Virus record (IMG/VR): IMGVR_UViG_3300005340_000001
Span: 1 to 64,000 of that record
DNA: 64,000 nt
From: a virus
Strand: one strand, 5' to 3'
In this document: piece after piece, positions 425 through 27,738 of the stretch
Position numbering within the stretch: position 1 is the first letter of the stretch
Layout: each line of letters begins with the position of its first letter
The notes under the pieces: model-generated
What the model was told of the DNA's origin: nothing
Seen by the model: the letters and a program-made list of their open reading frames with translations, nothing else
Databases searched by the model: none
Position numbers and translations under genes: made by a program

Positions 425-631
425 TAGCCTGCGCGACGCGAGCAGCGGGGCACTCCGCCGAGCCAGCGAAACCGTGGGCGGCTGGCGCAGTCCACGGGAT
501 CACCGGGTCGGGCAACGTAACCGCTTCGGCGGGTACCGCTGGCCTCCCGGGATCATGAGGCGCAGTCCGCACTCGCGACTGACTGAGGCCGTTCGACCTT
601 CGGGGAGGACGGCCTCGTCGTCTCGCTCTAG
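425..631. other. Gene-free stretch with a hairpin
   Basis: No convincing gene is seen between the small basic gene and the next one. The main feature is an inverted repeat at about 583-614: GAGGCCGT pairs with ACGGCCTC, and the loop contains a CC-TTCG-GG tetraloop. There is no T-tract, so it may be a weak terminator or a leader structure for the gene that follows. Confidence 0.45.
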
Positions 632-637
632 TATGAT
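632..637 (+). promoter_or_regulatory. Leaderless-type -10 box (TATGAT)
   Basis: TATGAT matches TATAAT at five of six bases and stands exactly 7 nt before a GTG start at 645. The same TANNNT-N7-start arrangement recurs at several other genes in this window. No clear -35 box is seen. Confidence 0.5.
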
Positions 638-644
638 CGTGCCG

Positions 645-2779: not shown

Positions 2780-2798
2780 TTGTAGTACAGTCGTACTG
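2780..2798 (+). promoter_or_regulatory. Leaderless promoter with palindrome
   Basis: TTGTAGTACAGTCGTAC lies directly before ATG 2799. The -10 box is TACAGT (2786-2791), exactly 7 nt from the start. AGTAC-AGTC-GTACT forms an inverted repeat over it, so a repressor could bind here. Nearly the same 17-mer occurs at 15026-15042. Confidence 0.55.
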
Positions 2799-3038
2799 AT
2801 GGACGAGCGCTCTGCTGCTACCCCTCTATGGGACGATGTCGGAGACTGGAGTTTCCTCTCGAACTACGCGCGCAAGGCGACGGCGTACGCGCCCGGCATC
2901 GACGACGCACTCACCGAGCTCCACGAAAAGTACGGCGAGGAGAACGTGCGCGTCGAGCAGCGAGCATTCATGCGTGACGGCAAGCCGTATCCAAGCGCCG
3001 TCGCCGTCTGGGTCCGACGCGAGAAGGCCGTCGCCTAG
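2799..3038 (+). CDS. Hypothetical protein, leaderless
   Basis: A 79-residue acidic protein with no ribosome-binding site; the start codon lies 7 nt after a TACAGT box. It opens a new transcription unit after a 99-base gap. Sequence such as LWDDVGDWSFLSNYARKATAY resembles small soluble phage proteins, but no family is recognised. Confidence 0.6.
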   Translation: MDERSAATPLWDDVGDWSFLSNYARKATAYAPGIDDALTELHEKYGEENVRVEQRAFMRDGKPYPSAVAVWVRREKAVA

Positions 3039-3865: not shown

Positions 3866-4860
3866 AGCGCAGCGCGGAACGTCATCTCGACACACACGCG
3901 AAAGAGCTCGCCGCTCATGCCGCAGCGGACGAGGAAGCGAAGCGGCAGGCCATCGACGCCGGGCAGGGGCGGTACATGCCGCCGCCGGCGCCCAAGTTGG
4001 CCAACGCCGACTCGTACGCGATCCAGCGGAAGGTGTCGAAGATCGCGCTGATCTGTCTGCTCGTAATCGCAGTGCTCGAGACGCTCGGCTTCTCGTTCGC
4101 GATCGTGTCGACGAAGAACGAGGGCATCGTCACGTCGTTCGGCGCGGTGAGCGGACACGTCGGCAACGGGCCGCACCTGATCGCGCCGTGGGAGAGCGTG
4201 ACCGAGATGGACGCCGCGATCCAGACCGACAGCTACACCGGAGCGAACAACGACAACGGCGCACCCATCGCGGTCCGCATCGGGAACCAGCAGACCGCCG
4301 ACGTGTCGATCAGCATTCGGTGGCGGATCAACCCGGCGATGAGCGACGAGCTCTTCCAGAACTACCGCACGTTCGAGCACGTCCGCGACAGCCTCGTCAC
4401 GCGTGAGTTGACCGCCGCCGTGAACGAGCAGTTCAAGGACTACAACCCGCTCAACTCGATTGCCGCCGCCGCGACGACGGGGAAGAAGAACCCGTCGCTG
4501 TCCGACATCGCGAACGCGGTGACCGAGCAGATGAAGCGGGAGATCGGCGTCGAGGGGATTGAGATCCTGAACACGATCATCCCGATCGTCACGTTCGATT
4601 CCGCGACGCAGAACCGAATCAACCAGCTACAGCAGCAGTTCGCGTCGACCCTGATCGCGGAGCAGCAGCGCCAGACGAACGTCAAGCTCGCGGAGGCCAA
4701 CAAGGCGCTCGCGAAGTCGGTCGACACGTCACCGAACGTCCTCGTCGCGCAGTGCATGACGATCCTCGGCGAGATGGTCAAGGAGAACCAGCCTGTCCCG
4801 GCCGGCTTCTCGTGCTGGCCCGGTGGGAGCAAGATCGGTGTCATCGCCGGAGCGAAGTGA
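3805..4860 (+). CDS. SPFH/band-7 membrane protein
   Basis: A 351-residue protein with an N-terminal membrane span (residues about 3-20), a short soluble linker, a second span at about 80-100, and then an SPFH (stomatin/prohibitin, band 7) domain: NEGIVTSFGAVSG, DVSISIRWRINP, and an IGVEGIEILNTIIP strand. A coiled-coil stretch follows (LQQQFASTLIAEQQRQ). An AGGAGG site lies about 9 nt before ATG 3805. Band-7 proteins form membrane-bound rings; they occur in several actinobacteriophages, where their role is unknown. Confidence 0.85.
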   Translation: MGWIVITALLLAAALVAWLLKRSAERHLDTHAKELAAHAAADEEAKRQAIDAGQGRYMPPPAPKLANADSYAIQRKVSKIALICLLVIAVLETLGFSFAIVSTKNEGIVTSFGAVSGHVGNGPHLIAPWESVTEMDAAIQTDSYTGANNDNGAPIAVRIGNQQTADVSISIRWRINPAMSDELFQNYRTFEHVRDSLVTRELTAAVNEQFKDYNPLNSIAAAATTGKKNPSLSDIANAVTEQMKREIGVEGIEILNTIIPIVTFDSATQNRINQLQQQFASTLIAEQQRQTNVKLAEANKALAKSVDTSPNVLVAQCMTILGEMVKENQPVPAGFSCWPGGSKIGVIAGAK

Positions 4861-10967: not shown

Positions 10968-10977
10968 CTAGTACATT
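10949..10977 (+). promoter_or_regulatory. Promoter TAGACT-17-TACATT
   Basis: TAGACT (10949-10954) and TACATT (10972-10977) are separated by 17 nt, each matching the sigma-70 consensus at four of six bases. TACATT is exactly 7 nt before ATG 10985. It lies across the end of the glycosyltransferase gene. Confidence 0.6.
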
Positions 10978-10984
10978 CGTAGCA

Positions 10985-11164
10985 ATGTCCGAGGGACAAG
11001 ACTTGAAGGACCGGCTGCTCGCCGCGTCCGGCGCGGAAGAGTCGCCGGTTGAACGCGAAGAGCACGCGAGCCTTGTCGAGAAGGTCGTTGAGCGCGTGCG
11101 CGGCGCGCGCGTCGTTGATCTCACGGCCGAGCTCTTCGAGCGGGTGCGGAGTAGCAGCAGGTGA
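10985..11164 (+). CDS. Short helical protein, leaderless
   Basis: A 59-residue charged helical protein (LVEKVVERVRG, LTAELFERVR) with no ribosome site. It overlaps the next GTG start by 4 bases. Function unknown. Confidence 0.55.
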   Translation: MSEGQDLKDRLLAASGAEESPVEREEHASLVEKVVERVRGARVVDLTAELFERVRSSSR

Positions 11165-11892
11165 TCTCTCCAGCTGACGCGCGCGCGCTGCTCGAGCGCG
11201 CCTACGCCGGCGGCACTACCGTCACGAACTGCGTCGTCCACACGCATCTCGATCTCACCGAGCGGCCGGACGACTGCAACCTGTGCCGCGCCGATCTTCG
11301 CAACGCCTTCTGCCGCGCCGGCGTCGTCAACGAGTGGCTCAACGATTGGAAGGCCGACGCCGAAAAGCTGCTCGAGCCGATCGCGGCAAGCGATCATCTC
11401 GTGGCGCTCGACGACTACGAGGTCGCGAACCTCCTGCAAGCGCTGCGCTTCCTACAGCGGATCGGCTGCGACACCGGCGACTGGCTCGGCCAGATCCGGA
11501 TGAAGCTGCCGGAGGCCACGCCGCAGCCGGCCAACGTCGCCGACGACGAGCTGCTCCGGCGCGTGACGCGTGCGAAGGACGTGCGCGAGGCGCTCGGTGT
11601 CGACGGCGATGCGGCCGTTCTCGACGTCTGGCCCGAGCCGGTCGCCGAGTGGTCGGAGGATCCGCGCCGGCGGTTGTTCGTGCTCGTCTCGAGCGTGACG
11701 GAGCGCCACTTCGTAGACCTCGCCGACGTCAAGCGCGAGTGCGGCGAGCCGCTCGAGGGAGAGACGTGGGACGACTTCCTGATCCGCGTGTTCGAGCGCT
11801 TCGACGGATCGGTCTACGGCGACGAGCTCTTCCCGTCCGACGCCAACCCGCAAGTCGGAATCGAGATCGAGGCGCATGACCCTGAAGCCTGA
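11161..11892 (+). CDS. Hypothetical protein
   Basis: A 243-residue soluble protein starting at GTG 11161. VVHTHLDLTERPDDCNLC near residue 25 holds His/Cys residues that could bind metal; the rest is a helical middle and an acidic C-terminus. No family is recognised. It is coupled to the genes on both sides. Confidence 0.6.
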   Translation: MISPADARALLERAYAGGTTVTNCVVHTHLDLTERPDDCNLCRADLRNAFCRAGVVNEWLNDWKADAEKLLEPIAASDHLVALDDYEVANLLQALRFLQRIGCDTGDWLGQIRMKLPEATPQPANVADDELLRRVTRAKDVREALGVDGDAAVLDVWPEPVAEWSEDPRRRLFVLVSSVTERHFVDLADVKRECGEPLEGETWDDFLIRVFERFDGSVYGDELFPSDANPQVGIEIEAHDPEA

Positions 11893-14360: not shown

Positions 14361-15031
14361 GCGCCATCTGCCAGGAGAGCGCCGCAGCGGTTGTGCCGGT
14401 GATCAAGGAGCTCTTCGCTCCGGAGACGGTCATCGACGTCGGCGGCGGCGAAGGATGGTGGGGCCGCGCGTTCTACGAGCTCGGCTCGAGCGTTGTCGTC
14501 GCCGACCAGTCGATCGACAGCTGGCGCTTCGAGACCAGCGGTGCTGGACACCGGCTCGACTTCCTCCCGGTCGATCTCACCGACGAGCGGTGGGCGCGGC
14601 AGCTCGCACACGAGCGCGCGCAGATCGCGGACATCCACGGCGGCTTGACGAACTTCGATCTCGCCGTCTGCCTCGAGGTCGCCGATCAGCTGCCGGCCGA
14701 AAACGCCGACGAGCTCGTCCTCGGGCTCTGCTCGATCGCGCCGGTCGTGCTCTTCTCCGCGGCGATCCCCGGTCAGGGTGGCCATCTCAACGAGCAGTGG
14801 CCCGACTACTGGCGCGTGCGCTTCCATGAGCACGGCTTCGCGTGCACCGACTGGCCACGCTGGCGGTTCTGGGACGACGACCGCGTCGAGCCTTGCTACC
14901 GGCAGAATCTCATGCTCTTCTCCGACATCGACACGCTCTACTCGGCGCTCTTCCGTGAGGACTGGCGGCTCGACGTCAGACCTGTCGTCCATCCGGACAT
15001 CTTCGGGTGGAAAAGCGGCCGATCGTTGTAG
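14357..15031 (+). CDS. SAM-dependent methyltransferase
   Basis: A 224-residue class I methyltransferase. VIDVGGGEGWWGRAF (residues about 25-39) is the SAM-binding motif I, VVVADQS follows as motif II, and FDLAVCLEVADQLP near residue 100 is the usual acidic motif. The GQGGHLNEQWPDYW stretch is common in methyltransferases of sugar and surface-polymer clusters. It lies between glycosyltransferase genes, so methylation of a sugar is plausible. Confidence 0.8.
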   Translation: MSAICQESAAAVVPVIKELFAPETVIDVGGGEGWWGRAFYELGSSVVVADQSIDSWRFETSGAGHRLDFLPVDLTDERWARQLAHERAQIADIHGGLTNFDLAVCLEVADQLPAENADELVLGLCSIAPVVLFSAAIPGQGGHLNEQWPDYWRVRFHEHGFACTDWPRWRFWDDDRVEPCYRQNLMLFSDIDTLYSALFREDWRLDVRPVVHPDIFGWKSGRSL

Positions 15032-15042
15032 TATCGTCGTAC
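15026..15042 (+). promoter_or_regulatory. Promoter-like 17-mer shared with 2780
   Basis: TTGTAGTATCGTCGTAC differs from the element at 2780-2796 at only two positions. Here the predicted start of transcription is about 40 nt before ATG 15081, and that ATG has an AAGGAG site, so this unit is not leaderless. Confidence 0.5.
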
Positions 15043-15080: not shown

Positions 15081-15482
15081 ATGGACGAGCACGTCGAGCA
15101 GGACCAGCAGGACGGCGCCGGCGACGGCGAGCAGGGCGACGGTCCGGTCGAGCCGATCGAGGGCCAGGAGGCCATCGAGACGGACGGCGAGACCGGTGGC
15201 GAGGGCGACGGCGACGGCGCAGACGCCGGCGACGACGGCTTCACCGAGCCGGGCGTCGGCGAGACGAGCGACGGCGAGGAGACCGGCGACGGCGCGGAGG
15301 ACGGCGAGTCCGACGGCCACACACACGCCGAGTCCGACGGCGAGGCGGGCTCCGAGCGGCAGCTGCCGCAGGGTGCGCGGCACGGCGAGCCTGTCGAGCC
15401 GTTCGACGCGCCCGACGCCGGCGCCGAGGACGGCGCGGACGACGGTGAGCAGCCGTCCGCTGAGGACTCCGACCAGGAGTGA
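15081..15482 (+). CDS. Highly acidic Gly/Asp/Glu-rich protein
   Basis: A 133-residue protein made almost wholly of Gly, Asp, Glu and Ala, with no hydrophobic core and only a short QLPQGARHGEPVEPF island. It is probably disordered. It has a ribosome site and its own promoter. Acidic proteins of this type can act as DNA mimics or linkers, but nothing specific is recognised. Confidence 0.6.
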   Translation: MDEHVEQDQQDGAGDGEQGDGPVEPIEGQEAIETDGETGGEGDGDGADAGDDGFTEPGVGETSDGEETGDGAEDGESDGHTHAESDGEAGSERQLPQGARHGEPVEPFDAPDAGAEDGADDGEQPSAEDSDQE

Positions 15483-18763: not shown

Positions 18764-19129
18764 ATGATTCCGTCGCCATGGGCAGCAGCGATCCTTGTAC
18801 TCGCGACGCATCGGCTCGTTCGGCTCGTCGGCTGGGACCATCTCTCGATCCTGGTCAAGGCGCGCGCGTGGATCGCCGGCGAGCACGCCACGAATAGCGC
18901 CAGCACGAATGCGCGCATGGGGTTGACGTCCGAGCGCATCGAGGTCAACGTCGCGTACCGCCGGCGGTTCTTCTACGAGCTCTTCGGCTGCCCGTACTGC
19001 TTGAGCGTCTGGATCGGCTCCGGCGTCTACGTCGCGTGGTACTTCGCGCCGTGGTGGACGCTGACGCTGCTTGCCGCGCCGGCGCTCTCGAGCGCGGTCG
19101 GCATCGTCTCGCGCTGGCTCGACCCGTAA
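18764..19129 (+). CDS. DUF1360-like membrane protein
   Basis: A 121-residue protein with a hydrophobic N-terminus (AAAILVLATHRLVRLV), a soluble middle and a FFYELFGCPYCLSVWIGSG segment leading into two further spans. The GCPYCLSVW motif is characteristic of DUF1360 proteins found in phages and Gram-positive bacteria. Its function is unknown. Confidence 0.65.
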   Translation: MIPSPWAAAILVLATHRLVRLVGWDHLSILVKARAWIAGEHATNSASTNARMGLTSERIEVNVAYRRRFFYELFGCPYCLSVWIGSGVYVAWYFAPWWTLTLLAAPALSSAVGIVSRWLDP

Positions 19130-19140
19130 AACACGGCTGG

Positions 19141-19146
19141 TAGCAT
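19141..19146 (+). promoter_or_regulatory. TAGCAT box before the tRNA
   Basis: TAGCAT ends 8 nt before the first base of the tRNA, so transcription would begin almost at the mature 5' end. This is the same box-to-start spacing used by the leaderless genes. Confidence 0.45.
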
Positions 19147-19154
19147 CCCGGCCA

Positions 19155-19227
19155 CGCGGAGTGGAGCAGCTGGTAGCTCGCCGGGCTCATAACCCGGAGG
19201 TCATCGGTTCGAGTCCGATCTCCGCTA
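19155..19227 (+). tRNA. Initiator-type tRNA-Met (CAT anticodon)
   Basis: A 73-nt tRNA without an encoded CCA. The acceptor arm pairs six bases (GCGGAG with CTCCGC) and leaves C1 facing T72 unpaired. The D stem is GAGC/GCTC. The anticodon arm is CCGGG-CTCATAA-CCCGG, with anticodon CAT, and the T arm is ATCGG/CCGAT. The unpaired 1-72 position together with three G:C pairs next to the anticodon loop are the marks of bacterial initiator tRNA rather than elongator tRNA-Met. Confidence 0.88.
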
Positions 19228-19242
19228 TTTTCACTATTTCTA

Positions 19243-19593
19243 ATGGCTTATGCCGACCCAGCGGACGAGGCGGCTTGCCAGCGACGCGCGTACGAACGCG
19301 ATCCGGAGGCGTACAAGCGCCGCGCGCGTGAGCATACGAAGCGTCAGCGCGCGCTCCTGCGACGCCTGATAGATGAGCTCAAGTCCGTGCCGTGCGCCGA
19401 CTGCGAGCGCGAGTTCCCGCCGATCTGCATGGACTTCGATCACATCGGCAACGACAAGGACCGCGCCGTCTCCGATCTCGTGCGCGCTGCGTGTTCGGTT
19501 GAGCGGCTCATGGCCGAGGTCGCGAAGTGCGAAGTCGTCTGCGCGTGCTGCCATCGGATTCGTACGGCAGCACGTCTCACTCTCGCTGACTAG
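19243..19593 (+). CDS. HNH-like endonuclease
   Basis: A 116-residue basic protein. The C-terminal half has CADCEREFPPICMDFDHIG and then KCEVVCACCHRIRT, a zinc-bound beta-beta-alpha fold of HNH type with paired Cys residues and the catalytic FDH. HNH proteins of this size occur near packaging genes in many phages, either as packaging cofactors or as homing enzymes. It lies between the tRNA and the portal. Confidence 0.7.
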   Translation: MAYADPADEAACQRRAYERDPEAYKRRAREHTKRQRALLRRLIDELKSVPCADCEREFPPICMDFDHIGNDKDRAVSDLVRAACSVERLMAEVAKCEVVCACCHRIRTAARLTLAD

Positions 19594-19820: not shown

Positions 19821-21863
19821 TTGGGCCTCTTCCGCCGCCGCCGTCGTTCGCCCGTGCCGCGCGCTCGCGTGGTGATGTCGCATCGCGTCGGCCCGACACA
19901 TGACGCGCTGAAGGCCGAGCTCGCTCTCGTCGAGAAGGACTTGCCGGAGTCCTATCGCGAGAACATGACCGCGGCCGGCGCGCTCGTCCGCCACGGACAG
20001 GCGACCTATCTGCGCCGCCTGATCATGCCGTGGCAGATCCGGGCGTTCGGCTACTTCGACCTCGTCGGCGAGTTCAAGTTCGCAGCGCAGTTCTACGCTC
20101 GAGCGCTCTCGCAGCTCTTGCTCTTCGCCGCGGAAAAGGACGAGAACGGCGACCTCATTCCGACGACGAACGAGCAGGTGATCGAGGCGTTCGAGCGGAT
20201 CAAGGATCCGGGCGGCATCGGCCGCACCGGGCTCCAGCGCGCCTACGGCTTGCTCGCGTTCCTCGTCGGCGAGGCCATCCTCTTCGTCTCGATCAACCCC
20301 GAGACGAATCAGGAGCAGTGGGAGATGCTCTCGACCGACGAGATCCGGCTGCTCGACGGCAACTACACGCGGTTCACGGCGCCGGTGATGCCGGCGACGC
20401 TCTTCCGCCCGGCGCCGGACGACTCATTCGAGCCGGTCGTCGACAAGGAAGGGAACAACCAGGGGCCCGCCGGCGTCGGCACCGCCGTCGCGTACCGGCT
20501 CCATCGGCCGCACCCGCGCTTCTCGGCACTGCCGGACTCCACGACCGAGGGCGTGCTCGACATCCTCGAGGAGCTCGTCCTTCTGACGCAGGTGATCCGC
20601 GCGCGGCTCCGCTCGAGACTCTGGACGGCCGGCTTCCTCTTCATCGACGACCGCATCACGACGCGACCCGACGAGCCGTCTCCGGACGAGGACATCCTCG
20701 AGGACCCGCTCATGGAGGACATGACCGAGGCGATCACGACGGCGATCGCCGACGAGGGCACCGCCGCCGCGGTGGCGCCGATCCTTCTGCGCGTGCGCGT
20801 CCCGGACGGGATGAAGCTCGCCGATCTCGTCTACCACATGCAGATCCAGGACCCGCTCCAGATTTACCCGGAGGTCGGCCTGCGCAACGAGGCGATTCGC
20901 CGGCTCGCGATCTCGCTCGATATGCCGGTCGAGGCGCTGCTCGGCTTCACCGACACGAACCACTGGAACGCCTGGATCATCGACGACCAGACGTGGCAGG
21001 CGCACATCCAGCCGGTCGCCGACGGATTCGTGGAGGACCTGACGGCCGCCTATCTCGGGCCGTACCTGCGCGAAGAGCTCAACATGGCCGACTGGGACAA
21101 GTACGTGATCGCGTACGACGCGACGAAGGTGATCAACCATCCCGACCGAACGAAGACCGCGATCCAGCTGCACGACAAGGCGGTCATCGGCGACGAGGCG
21201 CTTCGCCGCGAGACAGCTTTCAGCGAGGACGACGCGCCGACCAAGGACGAGAGGGCACGGATCGTCGGCATCGCGACGGGCGATTCGTCTCTCGCGTGGG
21301 ACGGCGTGCCGCGAGTCGGCGCCGGCTCGGTCGAGCCCACTCCGGGTGTCGTCTCGAACAGCGGGAACGAGCAGCCGGCCGGCGGGCCCGAGACCGGAGC
21401 GGAGGCCCAAACGGGACCGCCGGCCGGAGGCCAGGAGGCGGGCACCGAAACGATCGTCGGATCTCTCGGCACCACGATCGAAGGCGCGGCCGTCTATGCG
21501 CAGCTGCGCGCGCGCGAAGCCGCCGGCGCGCGCCTTCGGCAGCTCGCACGACGCGACGATGAAGCGCTCGCGCTGATCGACGGCAATCCGAACGGCCTTG
21601 TCGCGGCGAAACTCGGACGCACGACCGTCCGGCGGCTGCTCGGCGGCGCGCGCGAGCTCGAGCTCGTCTCCGCGACGCACGAGATCATGCTGGCCGTGCT
21701 CCGCGAGCTCGGCGTGCGCGACGACACCGCGGCCGAGTCCATCGCGGACACGATCGAGCGCCACGCCGCACGCACGCTCTATGACGAGCGGCCCGACCCG
21801 CTGCCGCCGACATTCGCCGCCAAGGTGGAGGGGCTCCTCGCGGCAGCGAAGAACGGGCGCTAA
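19821..21863 (+). CDS. Portal protein
   Basis: A 680-residue protein of the actinobacteriophage portal type. Typical stretches are RRLIMPWQIRAFGYFDLVGE near residue 70, AYGLLAFLVGEAILFV near residue 137, and NEAIRRLAISLDMPVEALLG with GFTDTNHWNAWIIDDQ near residue 375. The portal is the dodecameric ring at the head vertex through which DNA enters. The start is TTG 19821. The C-terminal 150 residues are a Gly/Pro-rich linker and a helical tail. The MuF gene follows, as usual. Confidence 0.88.
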   Translation: MGLFRRRRRSPVPRARVVMSHRVGPTHDALKAELALVEKDLPESYRENMTAAGALVRHGQATYLRRLIMPWQIRAFGYFDLVGEFKFAAQFYARALSQLLLFAAEKDENGDLIPTTNEQVIEAFERIKDPGGIGRTGLQRAYGLLAFLVGEAILFVSINPETNQEQWEMLSTDEIRLLDGNYTRFTAPVMPATLFRPAPDDSFEPVVDKEGNNQGPAGVGTAVAYRLHRPHPRFSALPDSTTEGVLDILEELVLLTQVIRARLRSRLWTAGFLFIDDRITTRPDEPSPDEDILEDPLMEDMTEAITTAIADEGTAAAVAPILLRVRVPDGMKLADLVYHMQIQDPLQIYPEVGLRNEAIRRLAISLDMPVEALLGFTDTNHWNAWIIDDQTWQAHIQPVADGFVEDLTAAYLGPYLREELNMADWDKYVIAYDATKVINHPDRTKTAIQLHDKAVIGDEALRRETAFSEDDAPTKDERARIVGIATGDSSLAWDGVPRVGAGSVEPTPGVVSNSGNEQPAGGPETGAEAQTGPPAGGQEAGTETIVGSLGTTIEGAAVYAQLRAREAAGARLRQLARRDDEALALIDGNPNGLVAAKLGRTTVRRLLGGARELELVSATHEIMLAVLRELGVRDDTAAESIADTIERHAARTLYDERPDPLPPTFAAKVEGLLAAAKNGR

Positions 21864-27724: not shown

Positions 27725-27738
27725 GGTATAAATATATC
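27725..27738 (-). promoter_or_regulatory. AT-rich dyad, reverse promoter or operator
   Basis: GGTATA-AA-TATATC on the plus strand; on the minus strand it reads GATATATTTATACC, 27 nt before ATG 27698. It contains good -10 hexamers in a very GC-rich genome and is almost palindromic. Related elements occur at 29634, 35799 and 61074. Confidence 0.55.

Follow-up and report, generated by a model that had tools for sequence, protein, structure and literature searches.

An initiator-type tRNA gene in a recurring position upstream of the portal gene of probable actinobacterial phages

Initiator tRNAs in phages

Initiator tRNAs encoded by phages are already known. Genes annotated as tRNA-fMet are present in Stenotrophomonas phage QDWS359 and Caulobacter phage CcrBL9, and these two, as well as Streptomyces phage pSt2308 and Bacteroides LoVEphage, carry the same type of tRNA as the one described here. 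In many phages the initiator tRNA belongs to a tRNA array, and in several smaller ones its gene lies close to those for the terminase, the portal or the capsid. The phiLM21-like prophages, i.e. temperate phages of about 50 kb, have been reported to carry single tRNA-Met or tRNA-fMet genes (PMC12429752), while in tRNA-dependent lysogeny the phage provides one tRNA of an essential isotype (PMC10865867). The roles of phage tRNAs are still argued, and a lone initiator tRNA is not explicable by codon compensation of elongation.

The tRNA gene considered here lies on the plus strand at positions 19155-19227 of the window, i.e. the whole 64,000-nucleotide stretch that was analysed, which corresponds to bases 1-64000 of an IMG/VR virus record of 96,219 bases. 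As in the smaller phages mentioned above, it is found near a portal gene, but in contrast to the tRNAs of arrays it is the sole tRNA in its record, with a hexamer of its own upstream. It resembles the phiLM21-like genes in being a lone CAU tRNA gene; those, however, are carried by integrated phages infecting Sinorhizobium, and the tRNA of phiLM21 is encoded on the strand opposite to the terminase genes. Like the tRNAs of tRNA-dependent lysogeny it represents one essential isotype, but no integrase was found in this record.

The gene is therefore a further case of a known kind, in an unusually informative lineage. The preliminary description called phage initiator tRNAs uncommon. This is a fair statement: of the 50,697 phage records searched, 326 had a match at E<=1e-3 (a similarity count that includes near-duplicates and misses divergent members). 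Such tRNAs are nevertheless neither rare nor new. In unrelated phages, too, lone initiator tRNAs seemed to have converged on sites next to terminase or portal genes. This was suggestive, but PHB04 and Pan5 are counter-examples and the sample had been picked by similarity, so no such convergence is claimed.

Structure and identity of the tRNA

ARAGORN and Rfam (RF00005, 63.2 bits) placed the tRNA gene within identical boundaries, 19155-19227 (+). Its sequence, divided by structural element, is CGCGGAG TG GAGC AGCTGGTA GCTC G CCGGG CTCATAA CCCGG AGGTC ATCGG TTCGAGT CCGAT CTCCGCT A, which folds into an intact cloverleaf with a CAU anticodon, as in bacterial initiator tRNAs. Position 1-72, the determinant of formylation and of exclusion from elongation, is unpaired (C1 opposite U72), and the anticodon stem contains the three G:C pairs 29-41, 30-40 and 31-39 (G29-31:C39-41) described as a feature of initiator tRNAs (PMC4611024). 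Both marks had been named in the preliminary description, and to these we can add A11:U24, the purine 11 : pyrimidine 24 combination of initiators. The anticodon loop is CUCAUAA and the discriminator base A73. All of these features are shared with bacterial tRNA-fMet, from which the gene differs in being phage-encoded, in the lack of an encoded CCA and in the presence of a -10-like element only 8 nt upstream.

As a yardstick for the separation of CAU tRNAs we used 205 parsed sequences, comprising the window tRNA and those of the fetched, mostly cellular, loci. An unpaired 1-72 position, purine 11 and the three G:C pairs occurred together in 142 of them, the window tRNA included, although this is not a census, as most of the 142 had been recruited with an initiator-shaped pattern. 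None of the three marks was present in 48 others, of the elongator-Met and Ile2 types, which carry a paired 1-72 and pyrimidine 11 : purine 24. Both elongator marks are absent from the window tRNA. The separation of the two groups makes the window tRNA clearly an initiator rather than an elongator tRNA-Met or tRNA-Ile2, the assignment that would have overturned the original proposal. The C1/U72 combination is ordinary, T72 being present in 24 of the 85 cellular initiator-pattern matches, among the matches listed. As far as comparison of sequences can tell, a genuine tRNA of initiator type is thus confirmed at this locus.

Genomic neighbourhood and putative host

Upstream of the tRNA lies a gene for a small DUF1360-like protein (18764-19129, +; PF07098, phrog_781), and directly 3' of the tRNA an HNH endonuclease ORF (19243-19593, +; phrog_3106, E=2.8e-21). 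The portal protein gene, which marks the position of the tRNA, follows at 19821-21863 (+; phrog_776, E=2.4e-85), and the terminase gene is located at positions 88362-89744 of the record. No peptide deformylase, a possible partner gene, was found in the 96,219-base record.

Almost all portal matches (848 records) were phages of Actinomycetota, which suggests that the host is probably an actinobacterium. The tRNA itself could not be used to name the host: a strict pattern matched 0 cellular genomes, while a looser one returned mixed phyla (Bacillota, Bacteroidota and others), with at least 7 mismatches among the matches listed.

The tRNA slot in related phages

The related phages, whose portal proteins are 45-87% identical, were compared in the slot upstream of the portal gene. 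Further relatives had come from a search with a profile of three portals, and two more scans with portal and other proteins found nothing new. A phage was regarded as informative when enough sequence upstream of the portal gene was available (the flank of L235 was too short). A CAU tRNA occupies the slot in 6 of the 8 informative phages, the window phage included.

The closest relative is the sister contig L005, with a portal 86-87% identical, in which the HNH ORF is missing and ARAGORN again placed a CAU tRNA at this position. This tRNA, with C1/A72 unpaired, is very different in sequence from that of the window and has an elongator-type U11:A24 and a weak D arm; it had no Rfam match at E<=1. 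Shuffled L005 sequence yielded 2 ARAGORN tRNA calls in 1.97 Mb, which puts the chance of such a call in a slot of about 210 bases at about 2e-4. The second relative, G001 (the same phage as L241), comprises 92,052 bases and encodes a HerA-like protein 90% identical and a portal 46-49% identical. Its CAU tRNA (69.4 bits; C1/C72 unpaired) lies just upstream of the portal gene, a homologue of the DUF1360-like gene again lies upstream of the slot, and Thr, Leu and Ser tRNAs are encoded elsewhere in its genome. In L242 (4300-4374) C1/C72 is likewise unpaired and the loop is CCCAUAA. The same loop is present in L236 (4203-4275), along with a paired G1:C72 and C73. In L238, equivalent to L239, the tRNA has A1:U72 paired and C73, and is followed by Ser and Cys tRNAs. 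The slot of L240 contains no tRNA, and in that of L237 (3995-4404) ARAGORN called a tmRNA, rejected for lack of Rfam support.

Four of the six slot tRNAs thus lack a 1-72 pair (C1 faces U, A, C and C) and the other two have one, and the notion that this position is unpaired in every relative failed. The paired 1-72 and C73 of L236 and L238/L239 indicate that the slot is not strictly reserved for initiators; it appears to be occupied by a CAU tRNA that is usually of initiator type, being initiator-like at the 1-72 end in 4/6 phages. The loops of L236 and L242 also have C33 in place of U33. U33 is nearly universal in tRNAs.

Selection and a putative promoter

Between the tRNAs of the window and G001, six stem pairs (in the acceptor, anticodon and T stems) have changed on both sides, and between those of the window and L005 nine, counts that come from three sequences, with the stem positions of L005 assigned by hand. 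The acceptor pairs from 2-71 to 7-66, the anticodon-stem pairs and the T-stem pairs are intact in each of these tRNAs, and 1-72 is unpaired in all of them, with three different bases at position 72. G30:C40 is retained in every initiator-like phage tRNA examined, including the phage loci L201-L217, while 29-41 and 31-39 vary.

A -10-like hexamer, TAGCAT, is located at 19141-19146 (+), 8 nt before the 5' end of the tRNA, and a weak -35-like element, TCGACC (4/6 match), at 19119-19124 (+), 16 nt upstream of the hexamer. A general consensus promoter scan gave no sigma-70 site near the tRNA; the -10 element was recognised by comparison of the relatives. The pattern TANNNT precedes all six slot tRNAs by 6-8 nt, as TAGCAT, TAGGGT, TACCCT (with TAGTAC at 9), TACGCT, TAGCCT and TAGTAT. 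Of the remaining 416 tRNAs of the loci, which come mostly from cellular, less GC-rich genomes, 37 have it at 6-9 nt, and the background chance is about 0.003 per slot tRNA. As the hexamer was first spotted in the window and L005, the four later relatives constitute the independent test.

The occurrence of TANNNT in all six slots suggests that a promoter of its own probably drives the tRNA, transcription starting at the 5' end or a few bases from it. Together with the compensatory stem changes, it points to a selected tRNA, usually of initiator type, that is probably expressed from this promoter and kept by selection in the phage lineage.

Candidate near-leaderless genes

The preliminary description presented the tRNA as belonging to a genome with leaderless genes. 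A motif, TAGTAY-NN-TCGTR, was found in six copies in the record, all on the plus strand, at positions 629, 2783, 10969, 15029, 69315 and 89919, whereas 0.04 copies are expected in base-shuffled sequence. Its final purine is as far from the hexamer as a start site usually is. Five of the six sites are followed by a start codon, 10-11 nt past the hexamer, so that the predicted leaders are 4-5 nt long and have no space for a Shine-Dalgarno sequence. In the form TAGTAYNNTCGTR, it represents a repeated promoter-like phage motif.

The copy at 629-641 (+) precedes a GTG at 645, 10 nt after the hexamer, which opens a candidate near-leaderless gene of 80 aa (645-887, +). The copies at 2783-2795 (+) and 10969-10981 (+) are followed at the same 10 nt by the ATG codons of two further candidates, of 79 aa (2799-3038, +) and 59 aa (10985-11164, +), the latter overlapping the start of the gene 11161-11892. 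At 15029-15041 (+) there is no start codon at 8-12 nt, and the next called gene starts at 15081 with the Shine-Dalgarno sequence AAGGAG. No PHROG family matched any of the five candidate near-leaderless products. Another sister contig, L121, has two sites with identical spacing, at 4012 and 5267, one of which precedes the homologue of 645-887 in the same arrangement; a start codon thus lies 10-11 nt past the hexamer at 7 of the 8 sites of the record and L121.

The five predicted near-leaderless starts at a repeated motif bear out part of the description. Against this, 68 of the 134 called genes (starts from a heuristic caller written for this analysis) are preceded by 4 nt or more matching the Shine-Dalgarno sequence, versus 14% of random positions.

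Possible role of the phage initiator tRNA

We suggest, with a probability of roughly 0.6, that the gene encodes a working initiator tRNA which adds to the fMet-tRNA pool of the host during infection. The tRNA would be transcribed from its own promoter, the -10 element 8 nt upstream placing the start within a few bases of the 5' end, and CCA would be added by the host. The CAU anticodon would allow charging by MetRS, the unpaired 1-72 end would permit the action of the host formylase and exclude the tRNA from elongation, and the three G:C pairs would serve placement in the P site. Extra fMet-tRNA might be useful if newly made phage mRNAs have to compete for initiation or if the host initiator is limiting. 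Such a general supply of initiator tRNA seems to be the most economical reading.

Two main alternatives have to be weighed. According to the stronger one, which we nevertheless consider doubtful, the phage tRNA replaces initiator tRNA of the host that one of its nucleases or modifying toxins has destroyed in the course of infection. An enteric VapC cuts initiator tRNA between A38 and C39 (PMC4105405), and resistance of phage tRNAs to such nucleases has been proposed (PMC10264068). The slot tRNAs vary in this region: the 31-39 pair, beside the cut bond, is A:U in L005 and L241 and C:G in L236, and the C33 of L236 and L242 (see above) is a change in the loop. The tRNA of the window, however, has C39 and an unaltered loop, CUCAUAA, the usual initiator loop, so it should be as sensitive to this type of enzyme as a host initiator. 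Moreover, phages reportedly tend to omit a tRNA whose anticodon is itself the target (PMC10264068).

The second alternative, somewhat more doubtful, is the one originally put forward, i.e. that extra fMet-tRNA selectively lifts the near-leaderless phage genes over Shine-Dalgarno-led mRNAs. Its premise, the dependence of leaderless mRNAs on initiator tRNA, is backed by the literature: leaderless translation is strongly enhanced by more fMet-tRNA, and leaderless genes account for 20-25% in Mycobacterium and Streptomyces (PMC9031893). The five starts at the repeated motif, with a purine at the predicted start site, and the two sites of L121 speak for it, as does a one-mismatch copy of the motif before the tRNA of G001, which suggests that the tRNA and near-leaderless genes may be co-regulated. 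In an actinobacterial phage lineage, an initiator tRNA and near-leaderless genes on the same kind of promoter might even constitute one switch that turns the ribosomes of the host towards phage messages, a slightly less probable proposal. The causal link from the tRNA to favoured leaderless starts is possible but not supported by the comparisons: the predicted leaders are 4-5 nt and not zero, roughly every second called gene seems to be led by a Shine-Dalgarno sequence, and initiator tRNAs are also carried by phages of Xanthomonas, Stenotrophomonas and Bacteroides. Furthermore, G001 keeps the tRNA while its 92 kb contain no full copy of the motif; the one-mismatch copy is its single motif-like site, and no near-leaderless gene is found there.

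It is unlikely that the tRNA is a mere passenger, a cassette kept through the mobility of the adjacent HNH endonuclease and playing no part in translation. The HNH ORF lies directly downstream in the window and is missing from the sister, homing endonucleases also adjoin the Met tRNAs of phiLM21 and RHph_TM61, and in two relatives the tRNA no longer conforms to the initiator pattern. On the other hand, the sister, which lacks this ORF, still has a tRNA in the slot, and across the relatives the stems stay intact through compensatory change and the promoter-like hexamer is kept. Least likely of all is integration into the host initiator tRNA gene with supply of a replacement: actinobacteriophages have been reported to carry a tRNA of the same isotype as the one that is disrupted at attB (PMC10865867), but neither a tyrosine integrase (PF00589) nor a resolvase-type recombinase (PF00239) was found in the 96-kb record, nor PF00589 in the 92-kb G001, both records being linear and possibly incomplete.

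The lineage offers, in one syntenic slot, natural variants at the positions that define initiators (1-72, 29-31/39-41 and 33). With these it can be asked whether the benefit to a phage comes from more initiation as such, from a substitute for a destroyed host tRNA or from an advantage for near-leaderless mRNAs.

Additional observations

Several CAU tRNAs that are not annotated in GenBank, mostly of initiator type, were noticed in other phage loci, namely L203 (4041-4113), L213 (1501-1574), L211 (1501-1573), L201 (20018-20091) and L217 (6000-6073). Most of them have genes for terminase, portal, capsid or tail proteins as neighbours. The portal gene of G001 (5538-8588 of L230, minus strand) is interrupted in frame by a stretch encoding more than 300 residues, starting with CVDEETEIL and ending with FFTGN, which is probably an intein. 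A second promoter-like repeat, TATATTTATAYCG, is present in the record of the window phage at 27736 (-), 29645 (-) and 75980 (+), with a Shine-Dalgarno-like leader, GAAGGGAGA, within about 35 nt after it.
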